From Candidatus Spechtbacteria bacterium RIFCSPLOWO2_12_FULL_38_22 (GTDB lineage: Bacteria > Patescibacteriota > Minisyncoccia > Spechtbacterales > 2-12-FULL-38-22): a stretch of DNA of 33,983 nt. Below the pieces are notes generated by a model, which was not told the origin of the DNA, made no database searches, and saw only the letters and a list, made by a program, of their open reading frames with translations. How positions within the stretch are numbered: the stretch's first letter is position 1; each line of letters starts with the position of its first letter. The stretch covers positions 1-33,983 of the forward strand of contig MHOK01000021.1 of assembly GCA_001820055.1 (NCBI GenBank). The letters run 5' to 3'. Below, one piece after another: positions 11,283 to 23,468 of this stretch. The position numbers and the translations under genes are program-made.

Positions 11283-11359
11283 GATGCGCGCACCGCGAAG
11301 CCCCCGGTTTTTGCCGGGGGCGAAGTGGTGGAGATGACGGGACACTTTGTTATTTCACT
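11283..11359. repeat. 77-bp direct repeat copy 1 (hairpin plus tRNA/tmRNA-3'-end-like sequence)
   Basis: gatgcgcgcaccgcgaagcccccgg...ccgggggcgaagtggtggagatgacgggacactttgttatttcact; near-identical to 11690..11766. Confidence 0.8.
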
Positions 11360-11689: not shown

Positions 11690-11766
11690 GGTGCGTGCAC
11701 CGCGAAGCCCCCGATTTTATTCGGGGGCGAAGTGGTGGAGATGGCGGGACACTTCGTTATTTCACT
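11690..11766. repeat. 77-bp direct repeat copy 2
   Basis: ggtgcgtgcaccgcgaagcccccga...tcgggggcgaagtggtggagatggcgggacacttcgttatttcact. Confidence 0.8.
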
Positions 11767-14098: not shown

Positions 14099-15487
14099 TT
14101 AAGCCCAAAAATCTAATAGATTCTTAATTGCTTCCTTAAATAATTCCGGAGCTTGAACGCCTAAAATCAAATCGCCTTGCTCATTTAAAAGAAACCCAAC
14201 TTTAAGTTCCACAATCTTTTTTTCTACTCCCCCAAATAAAACAACGGTGCGAATTATTTCAAATCCAGGATAGTATTTCTTGATATATCTGTCCTCAATA
14301 TCCTTAAAACCTCTTAACTCCTTAATACCGTCCTTACGGAACTTATATTTTTTACCTTCAACATCAATCACTTCGCTTCTTCCAAAGTCAATTAAAATTA
14401 AATCTGGTATGCTAATTATTTTCTTCTTATTTCCGGCTTTATATGCACGTTTATCAGAATACTTTTCTAAAGCAATAGGTTTTCCTTCTTTAGTTATAAA
14501 ATAGCCTTTCTCGCAACCGGCGTGGTTTTCAAAAATAGAGTATCCTTCTGTAAAATTTTCTGCCACCAAATGAATAAATATAGTCCCTAATTTCTCCCCA
14601 TCCATATCATACTTCCAATAACTCTTATGCATTACAGCTTTTGAAATTGTTATGCCCTGCAATGAGATATTTAAAGCATTGGCTATTTGAATAAACTTAT
14701 TTCCACCCTCAACGTGTTGTTGTAAAAGACCGTGCCGAGTAATTTCAATCTCACCTTTCCAACCTAATCTTCGCAAAGCTGCAGCAATTAAACTCAATGC
14801 GCCGATGTTTGGATCGTGAGATAGTCCGCCACTTTTGAAGAGCCGACCGGAGATTTGAATCTTCTTATCAAGTTTTGTAAACAAAATTGGCACATTTCCT
14901 TTCGGAGCATTTTTCATACCAGCTTTTAGAGCAATGATCTCATCAATGGTTTTAAAAGGTTTGAAAATTTTAGGATCTAACTTTTTACCTAACACCTCAA
15001 CGCCCAGAGTTAGCAGTAACCTTGTCCCAAAAATATACGTTGATGTTGCCACCTTTTTCTGATCTATCCTTAAATAATAGAGCATTATTTTTTTAGCATT
15101 TGGGTAATAGGTTTGTATAAAAAGAAATTTAATAGCTCGTTGATAAACACCGGTATTTCGGCTCTCCGAATCATCTGTTTTGGTTTCTTCAATCGCGTAA
15201 ATAGGTTTATCCCTTAAAGTTGGTTCATTTTTTTGATAAAAAATTAAGAAATCTACTGCACTTGAGTTCCCTGAAATAGTTTTTATATACACTCTGTCTA
15301 CATTATTGCAACGAAAACCTACGACCTCGTATTTAAAAGCAAACTTTCCATTTTCCAGAATTGGTAAAATGCGTATAGCATCAATAAAAACTGCAAATTC
15401 ATAATCCTTTGCAAATTTTTCAAGCACTTTTATTAAAACCTCTTTTTTGGGACGCTCCTCTGTTAAAAACCAAAGATTCTTTTTCAT
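14099..15487 (-). CDS. Putative PD-(D/E)XK restriction endonuclease
   Basis: 462 aa; SSAVDFLIFYQKNEPTLRDKPIYAIEETKTDDSESRN resembles a D...ExK core; overlaps the adjacent adenine methylase by 4 nt. Confidence 0.55.
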   Translation of the reverse strand: MKKNLWFLTEERPKKEVLIKVLEKFAKDYEFAVFIDAIRILPILENGKFAFKYEVVGFRCNNVDRVYIKTISGNSSAVDFLIFYQKNEPTLRDKPIYAIEETKTDDSESRNTGVYQRAIKFLFIQTYYPNAKKIMLYYLRIDQKKVATSTYIFGTRLLLTLGVEVLGKKLDPKIFKPFKTIDEIIALKAGMKNAPKGNVPILFTKLDKKIQISGRLFKSGGLSHDPNIGALSLIAAALRRLGWKGEIEITRHGLLQQHVEGGNKFIQIANALNISLQGITISKAVMHKSYWKYDMDGEKLGTIFIHLVAENFTEGYSIFENHAGCEKGYFITKEGKPIALEKYSDKRAYKAGNKKKIISIPDLILIDFGRSEVIDVEGKKYKFRKDGIKELRGFKDIEDRYIKKYYPGFEIIRTVVLFGGVEKKIVELKVGFLLNEQGDLILGVQAPELFKEAIKNLLDFWA

Positions 15488-16542
15488 TTTTTTAATATAT
15501 ATAACTGTTCCTTAACGTGTTTTTTTGTTTTGCTTGCCCCGTTATTGTTGCTTTTAAAACGTGGGTATTCAAATTCACTTAATTCAACTTGACCATATTG
15601 GGCCAATGTAGATATTATTTTTTTTTGAGGCATTATGCCCTCCGTGTTATAGCTCAAAATCAAGGCTCCGCAGTTTGCTTTTTTTGCTATTTTTGAAAGT
15701 TCACCTAATGCAGATTCTGGATTACAAAAATTAGATTTTTGATTACTATAATCCCTTAAACCGGTTACTCCTTTTATTTTCGGGTTGTCATACTTTGATA
15801 TCGTTTCTAACAAATGATAGTTTGGCGCATATTGCCTCTGATTATATGGGGGGTCAAGATAATATATATCCGCTTTTATTTTATCTACAAGATCTACTGA
15901 ATTGACATTAAACGCATAATTTTCTTTTTTGTTTACTATTTGAGGAACGCCACGTAATTTTAATGGCTTAAGCGCTCTTACGTCCCATTTTTTTTGAAAT
16001 GCTCCATAAACACCGGTGATATTTGCATAGAAAGGAGCAGTTTCAATAAGACAGGCCACCAATATAAAATACTCATTTTGAGTTACTAACTTTTCCTTCC
16101 GCCAAATTTCAATTTGCTGCCTGATTGCATCTATTCTTTTACCATTTTCGTTAGTAAAATACATTCTTGCTTGTTTTAATCCAGACGTCCCAGCCGGCGT
16201 ATAATTCTTGTAAATAAATCCTTCAACCGGGTCAATCTGATTTAAATACTCAACAACCAGCAATAAGGGCGAAGAAAAAAGAAAACCGCTCTTAATGCTA
16301 ATTTTATTAAGAAGTTTGCTGAATTTTGGTTCTTCGTTATTTACAATATACGCCTGCTGCAAAACATACGAAAAATGTAGTAAATCTGACGAAAAAATTT
16401 GATAACCCAATTTTTTGAAATACTTACCAACACTTGCAGTCCCAGCAAAAAAATCAAAGAACGAATTTCCTTGAATGTTCTTTGATTGCATTACTTGGTG
16501 TATTTTATTAACCAAATTTTCTTTATTACCAATAAACCTCAT
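15484..16542 (-). CDS. DNA adenine-N6 methyltransferase, D12 class (FokI-type half)
   Basis: 352 aa; MRFIGNKENLVNKIH, FFDFFAGTASVGKYF and IYYLDPPYNQRQYAPNYHLLETI. Confidence 0.85.
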   Translation of the reverse strand: MRFIGNKENLVNKIHQVMQSKNIQGNSFFDFFAGTASVGKYFKKLGYQIFSSDLLHFSYVLQQAYIVNNEEPKFSKLLNKISIKSGFLFSSPLLLVVEYLNQIDPVEGFIYKNYTPAGTSGLKQARMYFTNENGKRIDAIRQQIEIWRKEKLVTQNEYFILVACLIETAPFYANITGVYGAFQKKWDVRALKPLKLRGVPQIVNKKENYAFNVNSVDLVDKIKADIYYLDPPYNQRQYAPNYHLLETISKYDNPKIKGVTGLRDYSNQKSNFCNPESALGELSKIAKKANCGALILSYNTEGIMPQKKIISTLAQYGQVELSEFEYPRFKSNNNGASKTKKHVKEQLYILKK

Positions 16543-16543
16543 A

Positions 16544-17464
16544 CTATGTAGAATAATTCGTTATAAGCACCTCCACACTTGCATTTCTGTCCCTTACACG
16601 GGTTTGATAGTTAGAATTTGAATAATTGAAATCAATATAATTTATTCTGTAATTGTCCTTCTCTGAAATCCATTTTTTTAAAACATCATTTGATTTTCCT
16701 TTATGGTCTATGACATTTGATAAGGCAAATCTTATTCCCTTTTTGTTTAATTCATCTAATCTTTCTAATAAAGCGGTCTCCTCTTTCTCCGACCAACCCT
16801 TAAAACCCCTTTTCCCATCATTGTAAGTTCCTGTTGTTATAAGATACGGAGGATCACAATAGACAAAATCATTGTTAGACAAAAAAGAAAAATCAAATTC
16901 TTCAAAACAAATACCAGATAAGACAACGTCCAAATCTTTTAATCTTAAAATAAATCGCTCTAAATTTTCACGCATTTTATTATTAAAACTGCTTCTCTCC
17001 CTCCCAAATGGGTTATTAAATTCGTGATTATTGTTAAAACGTATTTGATGATTAAAAGAGTAAGCAATAAGAACAAATAAATCTAACGGATTTTTTTGTT
17101 CATTATATAAACTTCTCATTTCCTTATATCCGTCCTCATTTGTTAATGAAAGCTTGAACTGCCTTATCCTTCCATCTATATGCCCTAATATATCGCCAAC
17201 ATCTTGGGACTTAAAGATTTTATACATCTCAATCAAGTAAGTTAAGTTGTCATTTAGGTAGACGTGATCTGCATTTACGTTTATTCCCACATTACAACCA
17301 CCAGCGAATAAATCCACAAAATTACCTATGTTTTTGGGAAAATAAGGCACTATCTGGCCTAAAATCTTATATTTACCTCCAATATAATTTAACGGTGACC
17401 TTATAAAATCACCGACAATAATACTATTTGGAGATAACGGAAATAAATTAAGCTTGGTCTGCAT
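16544..17464 (-). CDS. DNA adenine-N6 methyltransferase, D12/Dam class
   Basis: 306 aa; SPLNYIGGKYKILGQIVPYFP, FVDLFAGGCNVGINV and FVYCDPPYLITTGTYN. Confidence 0.9.
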   Translation of the reverse strand: MQTKLNLFPLSPNSIIVGDFIRSPLNYIGGKYKILGQIVPYFPKNIGNFVDLFAGGCNVGINVNADHVYLNDNLTYLIEMYKIFKSQDVGDILGHIDGRIRQFKLSLTNEDGYKEMRSLYNEQKNPLDLFVLIAYSFNHQIRFNNNHEFNNPFGRERSSFNNKMRENLERFILRLKDLDVVLSGICFEEFDFSFLSNNDFVYCDPPYLITTGTYNDGKRGFKGWSEKEETALLERLDELNKKGIRFALSNVIDHKGKSNDVLKKWISEKDNYRINYIDFNYSNSNYQTRVRDRNASVEVLITNYST

Positions 17465-18603
17465 TATTTTTTAAATTCGTTAAGCTTAAAATCTACTTGA
17501 TATAAATATACTTCAACGTCTTTGAGTTTCTTTAAGGCAAAGTAAAGGCGTTCGTCATAATGTCCGGCTATGATAATTCCTTTTGTCGGTTTTCCGCTTG
17601 TTTTCTTTTCTTCAAGCCAGCCCATATACCTGGTGAGTTGCCCAACCGTGTCGTCGCTGGTTTGGTTCTTTTTTAGCTCTATCACAACATACTGGTCGGT
17701 TTTTTTATCTTTAGCTAAAATATCAATAATACCTATATCAGTTCTATACTGCTGACTTACCAGTTCACCATTTTCCTCTATTAAATCATATTTATTGCCA
17801 AATTCTGTCTTGTCCCAATTTTCTATAATAAAATCCTCCAACTGGCTCTCCATATAGAATAAGCTGGGATCGCTAATTTCTTGACTTACTGTAGGGAATG
17901 ATGCTTGAACCTCTTCTTCTGCTTCTATTTTGCTAACTTTCCAAAAAGATTTGAACTCTGCAGAGTAAGCGAAAACCGATACGGTTCTTGCCGAATAATG
18001 AATACCCGCGTTTTCAAAAAATTTTATAATATCACTGTTTGAAGCGGCTATTTTATTACCAATATCCTCTGACGAAAAATCTACGGTCTGTATACCAAGA
18101 AACGAACATAATTTTTCCCTATCATTCAAGGAAATAATGCTCAAATTATTAACCGGATAAAATGCCGCCAGCATTGCCCCCAGAGCATTTCCGCTTGGTC
18201 CTGTTAAATTATTTATATGTTTTTCTTCGTTAAGCTTGTATAGCTCATTTATATACCCAGCTTTTTGGGTCGTATCCTCTTCAAGAAAAATTTTATTTAA
18301 TAAGCTTGAAAATTCTTTACGAGCTTTTATACCGTTAAACATTCTTCTCCAAGCCCCTTGTGCAACCATAGCTCGTGCTACTGCTTCGCTTTCGCGGGTA
18401 TTACCACGCCCATTTCTATCTAAAATTCGTATAATTTGATCAACCTCGGCATCGTTCAGCTCGCTATTACCGTCCGCTAAAATCTTATTATCCCAAAAAT
18501 CTCTAAACAGCTGACTTTGTTTCACCCAAATAGCATCCTTTGATTCAACATCATATATAGCAAGGAAGTTATTAAATAATTGTTTTAATTCTTGTTTCTC
18601 CAT
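17464..18603 (-). CDS. Putative nuclease with NucS-like PD-(D/E)XK C-terminal domain
   Basis: 379 aa; RTDIGIIDILAKDKKTDQYVVIELKKNQTSDDTVGQLTRYMGWLEEKK matches the GxxDxLxxD...VVIELK...GQLxRYMGW pattern of NucS-type nucleases; its start shares a base with the methylase gene end. Confidence 0.75.
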   Translation of the reverse strand: MEKQELKQLFNNFLAIYDVESKDAIWVKQSQLFRDFWDNKILADGNSELNDAEVDQIIRILDRNGRGNTRESEAVARAMVAQGAWRRMFNGIKARKEFSSLLNKIFLEEDTTQKAGYINELYKLNEEKHINNLTGPSGNALGAMLAAFYPVNNLSIISLNDREKLCSFLGIQTVDFSSEDIGNKIAASNSDIIKFFENAGIHYSARTVSVFAYSAEFKSFWKVSKIEAEEEVQASFPTVSQEISDPSLFYMESQLEDFIIENWDKTEFGNKYDLIEENGELVSQQYRTDIGIIDILAKDKKTDQYVVIELKKNQTSDDTVGQLTRYMGWLEEKKTSGKPTKGIIIAGHYDERLYFALKKLKDVEVYLYQVDFKLNEFKK

Positions 18604-19500: not shown

Positions 19501-19640
19501 CGAAGCTGATGTGTGAGAATTTTGCGGAGGAATATCTTTATTTAGGAAGGCACGTTGCAGGCGCCATCTTCAATCTAAAAAATTGTGTGTGATAAGCCCC
19601 AAACAAAAAGCCCACCACCAGGTAGGACCTTGCGGCCCAA

Positions 19641-19787
19641 CATACGAGTTTCCTCGTATGGCGCAATCAGCGACCCTGATGATGGGGTGTTTGTGCTGAT
19701 TGCGTCTTGTTAACCATATCTCGCAGTTTAAACTGTGAGGGTTAGGTCTGTTTATTTAATTCGTTTTTATAATAGCAGAAATAGACC
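19641..19787. ncRNA. Candidate structured non-coding region with four successive hairpins
   Basis: catacgag-tttc-ctcgtatg; cgcaatcagc...gctgattgcg; taacc-atat-ctcgcagttt/aaactgtgag-ggtta; ggtctgttt...aaatagacc. No ORF over 60 aa in the track here. Confidence 0.5.
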
Positions 19788-20026: not shown

Positions 20027-20150
20027 GTCACAACAAGTGACAAATGTTACCGGGTTTCGAAACAAAATAGTAATTGAAAAATTGCTGTTCTGTTTTAGAA
20101 CCCGGTTTTGTTTTGTCACAACAAAATCGGGGTCTATAAGTCCCGATTTT
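20027..20150 (+). promoter_or_regulatory. Structured 5' leader: alternative small hairpin, long GAAA-capped hairpin and start-proximal hairpin
   Basis: GTCAC/GTGAC (20027..31/20037..41); 20037..20119 long hairpin; AAAATCGGG/CCCGATTTT (20123..31/20142..50). Confidence 0.65.
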
Positions 20151-20940: not shown

Positions 20941-21093
20941 ATGAACAAAAAACAAAAATTGTCGCTGACCGAAGAAGAAATTCTTAGAATTAAACTTGGG
21001 ACCTTTGCGGAATTTGATAACCAATTGAGAAGAGAACGCGTACTACAAGGATTGAAACGTAAAAGATTACAAAAAAAAGACGTGTCAGCGTAG
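20941..21093 (+). CDS. 50-aa microprotein with recombinase-like FAEFDN helix (not in ORF track)
   Basis: MNKKQKLSLTEEEILRIKLGTFAEFDNQLRRERVLQGLKRKRLQKKDVSA*; compare ASFAEFDNEMRKERCSDGMRQRVRQG in the neighbouring recombinase. Confidence 0.6.
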   Translation: MNKKQKLSLTEEEILRIKLGTFAEFDNQLRRERVLQGLKRKRLQKKDVSA

Positions 21094-21135: not shown

Positions 21136-21408
21136 ATGTCTGCTAACCATCAAATTATTGAGAATGAGGGCGTATCTATAAGCAAGAAGCGCCTCGCTAA
21201 AATCAAAAAGAAAACATTAACCTACAAAGGCAATGTTTATGGCTTTAATATTTATTGCCGTCATTGCAATCGAACAGTGTTTACAAGTTCGCAAATCATC
21301 GAGGGAAGACGAACTGACAACGAACAAAAAGGTTATAGAGATTGGATAGTTTTATGCACGAATTGCTGGAAAATAATCGACAGTGGTAAAAAAATTCATT
21401 TGATATAG
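21136..21408 (+). CDS. Small putative zinc-ribbon protein
   Basis: 90 aa; CRHC...LCTNC paired CxxC motifs. Confidence 0.6.
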   Translation: MSANHQIIENEGVSISKKRLAKIKKKTLTYKGNVYGFNIYCRHCNRTVFTSSQIIEGRRTDNEQKGYRDWIVLCTNCWKIIDSGKKIHLI

Positions 21409-21434
21409 GCCTATGGAACTGTTATAGTTAGGGC

Positions 21435-21544
21435 GTTGACCCAATCATATATTTGTCCGATTTTTTTAATGCTGACCTTAAAGCGGCGCCTGCCAGCATT
21501 ACTACCTTCGGGCAAGTGGTTGGGTCAACCAGGCGTCGCTTTAA
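21435..21544 (+). promoter_or_regulatory. Structured leader of the serine recombinase with interleaved stems
   Basis: gttgacccaatcat (21435..21448)/gtggttgggtcaac (21516..21529) and ttaaagcggcgcctg (21478..21492)/caggcgtcgctttaa (21530..21544). Confidence 0.65.
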
Positions 21545-21573
21545 TGTTGAAAGAAATTAACCAAAACAAAACT

Positions 21574-23136
21574 ATGAAAGGAATAATATACACTCGTGTA
21601 TCAAGTGATGAACAAGTTAAGGGCACATCTTTAGAACACCAGGAGGAGGTTTGCCGTGAATACTGTGAGAAGAAAGGAATTAAAATAGCCGGGGTATTCC
21701 GAGAAGAAGGCGCTTCGGCTAAAACTGCTAATAGAAAAGAGTTTCTAAAGGCCATTGAATACTGCCGCAAGAACCAGGGAAAAGTAGAAGCTTTTATTGT
21801 TTATAAAGTTGACCGTTTTGCTCGTAATACAGGCGATCACTTAATGGTTAGACAAAAACTATTGCAGTACGGTGCCACGCTTCATTCGGTAACAGAAACT
21901 ATCGGAAACAGCCCACAAGAGAAACTCCTTGAAACTATGCTCGCCTCATTTGCCGAGTTTGATAATGAAATGAGGAAAGAAAGGTGTTCAGATGGGATGA
22001 GGCAACGAGTTCGGCAAGGTATATATCCGTGGAACCCTCCTATTGGCTACAAAAGTCAGCACGCCAAAAGAAATGGTGAGAAGAAAACAAGGCCTGATCC
22101 GCCAGATGAAAATACATTTCCTTTAGTGCAGCGGGCGTTAAAAGAATACTCTAAAGGCATATACTCTCAAATAGAGATTGCGAAACTTTTGGATAGTTGG
22201 GGACTTGAAAAAATTAGAGGAAAAAAAACAAGCTCTCAGTTGGTAGACAGGATATTGGGGCATTCTCTTAAATTTTATACAGCTATTCTTGTAGATCCTT
22301 GGACTAAAGAAGAAATCCCGGGCCAGCACGTGCCAATGATTACAGAAGAGGAAATGTATCGGATTCAAGCAGTAAGAGCCGGCAAAGCATACCAGCAAGC
22401 CAGAAAAGGCACATATAACCCTATATTCCCTTTGCGGAAAACTGTTTACTGCGGGTTTTGCAATAATCCCCTAACCGCAAGTGCTCCTCGTGGTAATGGC
22501 GGTCTGTATTATTATTACCACTGCTATACAAAAACCTGCACCGCTTATGCAAAGAACATCCGGAAACAAGATTTAGAAAGTGAGTTTTTGGATTACTTAA
22601 AAGAAATAACCCCAACAGAAGATTTCTTAATCGTTTTTAAAGAAACTTGTTTGAATGTGTGGAAAGAAAAGTTAGAAGAACACACGGTGAACAGATCAGA
22701 ATACGAAAAAGAACTCAAAAAACTTGAGCAGCGTAAAAAACAAATATGCGAAATGATGGAAACCGGAACTTATGATGCTCAGTTAGGGCAAGAACGCCTA
22801 GAGGAGATGAAAAATAAGATAATAGCTACAAAAATATCCTTGAGCGAAGCAAGGATAGATGAGTTGGACGTGGAGGCAACTTTAACATATGCGTCTAAAT
22901 TTATAAAAGATTTAGCCCGCCAATGGATTGATTTAGGTACGGCAATGGATAAACTACAGCCCCAGTTCCAAAAGTTAGTTTTACCCAATGGAATTCCCTA
23001 TACTCGAGGTGAAGGATTTGGAACCGCCGATTTAGGGCTTATATTCGAGCTTTACCGCCAATATGACGGCGATAAATCTCTTGTGGTGGAGATGGCGGGG
23101 ATTGAACCCGCGTGTAGAAGAGGTAAAAATAGCTAA
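21574..23136 (+). CDS. Large serine recombinase (resolvase/invertase N-terminus, recombinase domain, zinc ribbon)
   Basis: MKGIIYTRVSSDEQVKGTSLEHQEEVCREYCEKKGI...VYKVDRFARNTGDH...ASFAEFDNEMRKER...VYCGFCNNPLTASAPRGNGGLYYYYHC. C-terminus SLVVEMAGIEPACRRGKNS is encoded antisense to the ssrA 3' end. Confidence 0.95.
   Translation: MKGIIYTRVSSDEQVKGTSLEHQEEVCREYCEKKGIKIAGVFREEGASAKTANRKEFLKAIEYCRKNQGKVEAFIVYKVDRFARNTGDHLMVRQKLLQYGATLHSVTETIGNSPQEKLLETMLASFAEFDNEMRKERCSDGMRQRVRQGIYPWNPPIGYKSQHAKRNGEKKTRPDPPDENTFPLVQRALKEYSKGIYSQIEIAKLLDSWGLEKIRGKKTSSQLVDRILGHSLKFYTAILVDPWTKEEIPGQHVPMITEEEMYRIQAVRAGKAYQQARKGTYNPIFPLRKTVYCGFCNNPLTASAPRGNGGLYYYYHCYTKTCTAYAKNIRKQDLESEFLDYLKEITPTEDFLIVFKETCLNVWKEKLEEHTVNRSEYEKELKKLEQRKKQICEMMETGTYDAQLGQERLEEMKNKIIATKISLSEARIDELDVEATLTYASKFIKDLARQWIDLGTAMDKLQPQFQKLVLPNGIPYTRGEGFGTADLGLIFELYRQYDGDKSLVVEMAGIEPACRRGKNS
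21732..23136. other. placeholder-free note: right boundary region of putative integrative element (recombinase body plus att-like ssrA 3' end)
   Basis: 17-bp GTGGTGGAGATGGCGGG at 23083..23099 recurs in direct orientation at 11732..11748. Confidence 0.3.
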
Positions 23137-23468
23137 CCTACAAGTTTAGATTATTTGTTTTAGGTTACCCATTTAAGATATATAGCTAAAAAATAACCAA
23201 AACACTATAAATCCGAGTCCTAAAGTTTTGCTAACAGTTTGGACACACTACTAGCTATTCCGATAAATTGGCACCGCATTTGAACCATCGGAAGTCATTC
23301 AATGCGATGGCTTACGGTCCGCCGGCTGGCGGATTAAGCGTAAGCTAATGCAGGTGTTTCACTGCGTGAGAAGTTTGCACTTACTCGTTGTCTATTGTTT
23401 TACGAGCACTAGACGAGCTCGACTTGCAAACTATAAATACTTTCTCCTAGCAAATCTAAAACATCCCC
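23084..23468 (-). ncRNA. ssrA: tmRNA (ssrA)
   Basis: Minus strand 5' GGGGATG ... CATCTCC-ACCA 3' forms a 7-bp acceptor; T-arm GCGGGTTCAATCCCCGC; tag ORF 23378..23334 GCA AAC TTC TCA CGC AGT GAA ACA CCT GCA TTA GCT TAC GCT TAA = ANFSRSETPALAYA*; adjacent to smpB. Confidence 0.93.

Follow-up and report, generated by a model that had tools for sequence, protein, structure and literature searches.

In the rep mRNAs of IncI/IncB plasmids, a hairpin loop pairs with a downstream sequence that immediately precedes the start codon, and the short pseudoknot so formed activates translation. Type I toxins, such as tisB and hok, are encoded by primary transcripts that are translation-locked. In Salmonella, a stem-loop in the 5′UTR of the IS200 tnpA mRNA hides the ribosome-binding site (RBS), and the transposase is kept low (PMC12594629). 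The 5′UTR of the ISPpu9 tnp gene of Pseudomonas putida also folds into a structure that likely includes the RBS, whose weakening raises the translation of the transposase, and which is opened by an antisense sRNA (PMC8450116).

Here we describe a leader located upstream of a large serine recombinase gene in the window, that is, the whole stretch of 33,983 nucleotides analysed, which is one contig of a 0.62-Mb genome. Computationally, it is a four-helix RNA that acts in the sense strand, lies at the 5′ terminus of its transcript as placed by the promoter, and stands before recombinase genes. It shares with the plasmid rep mRNAs a loop-to-downstream pairing ahead of a mobile-element gene, but its helix C is of 10-21 bp across the family and abuts another helix, P1. 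As in tisB and hok, the structure draws on the very 5′ end of a primary transcript whose gene may be harmful, although the structures and the genes are different, and our leader has no known processing site. Compared by description only, the IS200 case is similar in having a structured 5′ leader, one that lowers translation there and may do so in our family, on the mRNA of a mobile-element recombination enzyme, and different in that a stem-loop covers the RBS of an IS transposase (PMC12594629); an apical-loop-to-tail pseudoknot starting at +1, as found in our family, is not reported there (PMC12594629). ISPpu9 differs as an IS element from another host with an antisense sRNA, whereas no conserved antisense promoter was detected across the members of our family; a minus-strand -10 peak at -11 was discarded as such, being the near-palindromic -10 box itself.

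A literature search, whose scope did not extend to the survey of motifs that Weinberg and co-workers published in 2017, found no published description of this leader. In Rfam release 15, no family reached its gathering cut-off over the leader of the window or those of five other members (L061, L070, L065, L034 and L080), where weak chance matches only were obtained, such as plant microRNA families over L034 and L080. We class the leader as a new family of RNAs whose presumed kind of function is already known, and it is very probably genuine, an RNA element that controls mobile DNA instead of a chance pattern.

The leader in the window and its surroundings

The earlier note on this DNA had described two interleaved stems, A and C, a smaller stem B, a run of Ts ahead of B, and a recombinase ATG just downstream. 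Recomputation placed all of them where that note had them (Table 1): A (hereafter P1) comprises 14 pairs, two of them G:U, C comprises 15 with one G:U and opens its 3′ arm at the base next to A, B (hereafter P3) has seven pairs, and 29 nt separate C from the ATG. The proposed pseudoknot also held, with A and C interleaved through a zero-length junction, but its geometry is not that of a classical H-type, as the junction lies between the two 3′ arms. The arrangement is that of an apical-loop-to-tail pseudoknot into which two further helices are inserted, and RNA folding revealed one stem absent from the earlier description, P2, where UUGUCCGA pairs with UCGGGCAA. The predicted fold has a z-score of -4.96, with none of 200 shuffles folding as well, and the combined A+C pseudoknot scores 70.5 (maximum of 50.0 among 2000 dinucleotide shuffles), the highest value on both strands of the window. 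A second, weaker pseudoknot-like arrangement (score 50.5) occurs at 20037-20141, upstream of a DnaD-like gene; it overlaps a sub-threshold similarity to CopA (E 0.23), and no -10 box stands at the same spacing from it.

Table 1. Positions of the leader helices and of the flanking promoter and gene in the window
Feature	Positions	Strand	Basis or remark
Promoter TTGATA-17-TATAGT, sigma-70-type	21400..21428	+	-10 at 21423-21428, ending 6 nt before P1
P1 (stem A), 5′ arm	21435..21448	+	21435 is the predicted +1; folding and covariation
P2, 5′ arm	21453..21460	+	Double-sided changes at every P2 pair
U-run between P2 and P3, nearly invariant	21461..21467	+	40-44 of 46 sequences have U in alignment columns 53-56
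P3 (stem B), 5′ arm	21468..21474	+	Arm-swap test among 23 members
C, 5′ arm (apical loop of P3)	21478..21492	+	Folds and covariation
P3 (stem B), 3′ arm	21494..21500	+	Folds
P2, 3′ arm	21508..21515	+	Folding and covariation
P1 (stem A), 3′ arm	21516..21529	+	Folding and covariation
C, 3′ arm, directly after P1	21530..21544	+	Bears UUU and the U of the G.U wobble, both conserved
A-rich linker, no Shine-Dalgarno (SD) sequence	21545..21573	+	Sequence inspection
Large serine recombinase	21574..23136	+	Resolvase N-terminal domain PF00239 (E 7.5e-35); zinc ribbon PF13408 (4.9e-7)

The last part of the recombinase frame overlaps the 3′ end of a tmRNA gene encoded on the opposite strand (RF00023, 127.8 bits; 23084-23468, minus strand), which was not called by ARAGORN. 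A 17-bp direct repeat, GTGGTGGAGATGGCGGG, is found at 11732-11748 and at 23083, with a near copy at 11325, and may represent the boundaries of an 11.35-kb element inserted in ssrA. The region 14099-18603 encodes two D12-class adenine methyltransferases, a protein with a NucS/YhcG-like nuclease domain and one further protein, a cluster that is possibly R-M cargo of the element. The window also contains a LOOT RNA, from a structured RNA family (RF03000, 68.8 bits; 19624-19748, minus strand), 1.7 kb upstream of the leader, as well as a short reading frame at 20941-21092, with a fragment resembling residues 115-145 of the recombinase (42%); ahead of this frame stands a near-copy (88%) of AATTAACCAAAACAAAACTATGAA, the context in which the recombinase starts. 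SD sequences are present in two of the 16 window genes checked and absent from the other 14, which indicates that the organism rarely relies on them.

A family of leaders in Patescibacteria

Two covariance models (R1 and R2) and a pseudoknot descriptor resulted in a family of 47 copies in Patescibacteria, the one in the window and 46 more, in roughly 5-7% of the genomes sampled. R1, built from three sequences and run over 384 genomes of the host class, found 21 strong matches, the window among them, below which the scores show a gap; all 21 have the pseudoknot, and the descriptor added L034 and L080 for a set of 23 members. R2 was built from 15 sequences and applied to 380 genomes sampled across the whole phylum, where it identified 28 true copies. 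Of these, 24 were new, which brought the total to 47; R2 recovers every member except L034 (46/47). Two candidates, L112 and L113, were dismissed as false positives. A pattern with P1 only returned five matches in genomes of the host class, one of them a new true member (L040), and 15 chance matches in IMG/VR, all without a C stem. C-core patterns and the recombinase of L061 found no match in IMG/VR, nor did the leader of one member in phages and plasmids.

All copies but one (46/47, window included) precede a large serine recombinase, which in L080 and L110 begins some hundreds of nucleotides further on. The sole copy with no following recombinase (L105 / L114 1635-6085) precedes a type III R-M mod-res operon, near which a separate gene for a serine recombinase is encoded on the opposite strand. 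The leader in the window is identical to one on the Candidatus Curtissbacteria contig MFBL01000049, which places its host among the Patescibacteria. The closest recombinases (L008, L009 and L010) were tried as a source of homologous leaders and have none; two distant ones (L027 and L034), of 24-29% identity, do carry it. When the leader is mapped on a tree of 68 recombinases, its presence takes at least nine gains or losses to explain, and such a scattered distribution indicates that it is not the marker of one clade. A second leader motif suspected in a leaderless clade failed on alignment.

P1 and C fold in each of the 47 copies, and P2 and P3 as well in nearly all. In almost every copy the order is P1, P2, a U-run, P3 with the 5′ arm of C as its apical loop, the closing of P1, and the 3′ arm of C, which begins at or within 2 nt of the 3′ end of P1 and pairs with the apical loop. 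The first C pairs of L075 and L077 are reached via a small bulge, C is offset in L080 and displaced by one nucleotide in the L106-L109/L111 subgroup, and the minimal versions L104 and L110 have a single inner hairpin. The sequence of C is conserved beyond its pairing (GGGCGG, a G.U wobble in 33/43, U-run, UUU), and the alignment shows conserved letters in the unpaired U-run and the C core, with few conserved unpaired positions overall.

The earlier note had left its stems to stand or fall by covariation, and the homologous leaders do keep their helices through compensatory changes. In an alignment of 46 sequences (A4), fitted to a model with the P1 and P2 pairs but without C, paired cells reach 82.6% versus 65.4 after shuffling, and double-sided pair changes 427 versus 145; for C alone, with column pairs picked from the members' own folds, the values are 90.3% paired and 116 double-sided changes versus 34. 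None of 500 shuffles reached any observed value, and these shuffles ignore relatedness, a point answered in part by the diversity of pair types and by controls with a partner slid by 1-3 columns, where the covariation score falls from 0.40-0.45 to 0.06-0.12. Because the model held no C pairs, the covariation of C is free of model-fitting bias. Covariation is thus seen in P1, P2 and C; P3 aligned less well, and in its arm-swap test the own arm was strictly best in 21 of 23 members. Arm swapping among the 23 members agrees with the covariation in A4.

The 5′ end of the leader can be placed with the promoter. The -10 hexamer (at least 5/6 matches) lies at exactly -12 relative to the first base of P1 in 40 of 46 members, a pyrimidine occupies position -1 in 42/46, and a purine position +1 in 45/47. 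In nearly all copies, the predicted start of transcription thus falls on the base that opens P1, with 6 nt between it and the -10 hexamer, and the leader begins there. The earlier note considered a start downstream of 21530 fatal to its proposal; the promoter lies upstream of 21435 and not beyond 21530.

A palindrome that acts as DNA makes no difference between G.T and A.C mismatches, whereas a sense RNA tolerates only G.U. The G.U:A.C counts are 69:2 in C, largely due to one conserved wobble column without which the ratio is still 36:2 or better, 12:1 in P1, and weaker, 22:10, in P2; a Watson-Crick-only search of the 23 members gave 32:2 for C. The large excess of G.U over A.C in P1 and C argues that the pairing acts in the sense-strand RNA and not in DNA.

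Possible modes of action

With modest confidence, we favour a new family of cis-acting, 5′-terminal leader RNAs that would hold the expression of mobile-element genes low or conditional, most likely through a C helix that restrains translation initiation. Precedents are the leaders of IS200 and ISPpu9, whose structure conceals the RBS and holds the transposase at a low level (PMC12594629; PMC8450116). We infer that there would be regulation of expression, that translation would be the step affected, that P3 and C would exchange, and that some trigger may exist. Transcription would start at the first base of P1, and the mRNA would therefore begin inside the structure. P1, P2 and P3 fold into one long hairpin, with the 5′ arm of C in its apical loop; once P1 closes, the 3′ arm of C would emerge directly below and pair with the loop, producing a very stable pseudoknot that abuts P1. 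The C helix, on or beside the ribosome loading region, would have to open before initiation, with P3 as the alternative state, and the leader would in this way keep the recombinase, or another mobile-element gene, at a low or conditional expression.

Duplex energies make C stronger than P3 in 47/47 copies (medians of -25.2 and -8.7 kcal/mol), and the linkers have medians of only 3 and 1 nt, so short that a full coexistence of P3 and C would be tight. Since C is stronger and the linkers are tight, a P3 that forms first and is then replaced by C is plausible. The distance from the end of C to the AUG, with the start codons of most homologues set by a simple first-open-ATG rule, is up to 10 nt in 17/46 members, 11-20 nt in 13/46 and more than 20 nt in 16/46 (window included). 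The 30 members with C within 20 nt of the AUG speak for a possible occlusion of initiation; given the other 16, together with the A-rich, open linker of the window, direct occlusion cannot explain everything. The restraint of translation would fit the window itself least well, given its open linker of 29 nt, and the conservation of the C sequence exceeds what simple occlusion requires. A role of the 5′ arm of C outside the leader was also considered and rejected: not every member keeps the AAAGGGG that would make it an SD decoy, and instead of following helix 44 of the 16S rRNA the arm covaries with its own cis partner.

The A-rich gap of the window makes it possible to think of either a protected 5′ end or a leader bound by an effector, and we hold both for rather unlikely, to a similar degree. 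As armour of the mRNA, a paired 5′ terminus would block 5′-dependent decay by RNase J or E and stabilise rare recombinase transcripts with no regulation of translation, which agrees with the predicted first nucleotide being held by P1 in nearly all members, with a 5′ end sitting at the junction where C abuts P1, and with the 16 members, the window among them, in which C ends far from the start codon; a simple 5′ hairpin would however suffice, and P3, the long C helix and its conserved sequence would be superfluous. The effector, either a ligand, the recombinase or a host protein, would bind the U-run, GGGCGG/G.U, UUU and CC and set expression. The conserved letters of the unpaired U-run and the C core, and the G.U wobble retained in 33/43, point in this direction, but the conserved unpaired bases are few for a small-molecule pocket, and a leader that precedes highly diverse recombinases, and in one case an R-M operon, makes autoregulation by one protein unlikely.

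Other readings appear less probable still. With its A-tract, GC core and U-tract, the C helix looks like the stem of a terminator, whose formation could stop the RNA polymerase, and UUU is nearly invariant after the GC core of its 3′ arm; such attenuation is nonetheless improbable, with a U-tract that is short (mean of 4.7 U in 8) and interrupted by A/G, and with tens of nucleotides between the two arms of C. We give very little credit to an RNA cofactor or guide for the recombinase, similar to bridge RNAs, or to a released trans-acting sRNA, even though the association of a structured RNA with a recombinase gene, and the promoter directly before it, invite the comparison: the variable segments are all helical arms and the loops short and A/U-rich, with no free variable loops, no intrinsic terminator follows the leader on the sense strand of the window, and one copy serves an R-M operon. 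The earlier note had hesitated between a riboregulator and a DNA site, and covariation, the G.U bias and P1 at the predicted start strongly back the RNA half, while the DNA half is disfavoured. Inverted repeats just downstream of a promoter and adjoining a site-specific recombinase gene could be bound by the recombinase or a repressor, or be part of an attachment site, but the tolerance of G.U with A.C almost absent in P1 and C is a strand asymmetry as for a sense RNA, the arms begin at +1, and the likely attachment site is at the opposite end of the gene, in the tmRNA, all of which makes a DNA-level site highly improbable. That the leader RNA regulates expression, and by which route, is inferred.

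The conserved U-run may form a U.A-U triple with the A/U end of C, an idea invited by the U-run and the UUU. Beyond the leader RNA that holds expression low or conditional, a bolder extension, which we consider doubtful, would be a phylum-wide, portable RNA switch for mobile DNA, perhaps including the triple, that would sense entry or stress (through a ligand, a protein or the state of the ribosome) and then release integration enzymes and, occasionally, R-M cargo.

Patescibacteria are a vast and mostly uncultured group, where RNA regulation and the control of mobile elements are little known. This leader family, with no Rfam entry, shows a very strong covariation, a fixed 5′ end and an unusual loop-to-tail pseudoknot, and it is tied near-exclusively to large serine recombinases, a class of enzymes also used in genome engineering. 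It opens a way to test directly by what means integration is restrained, with a covariance model ready for annotation.
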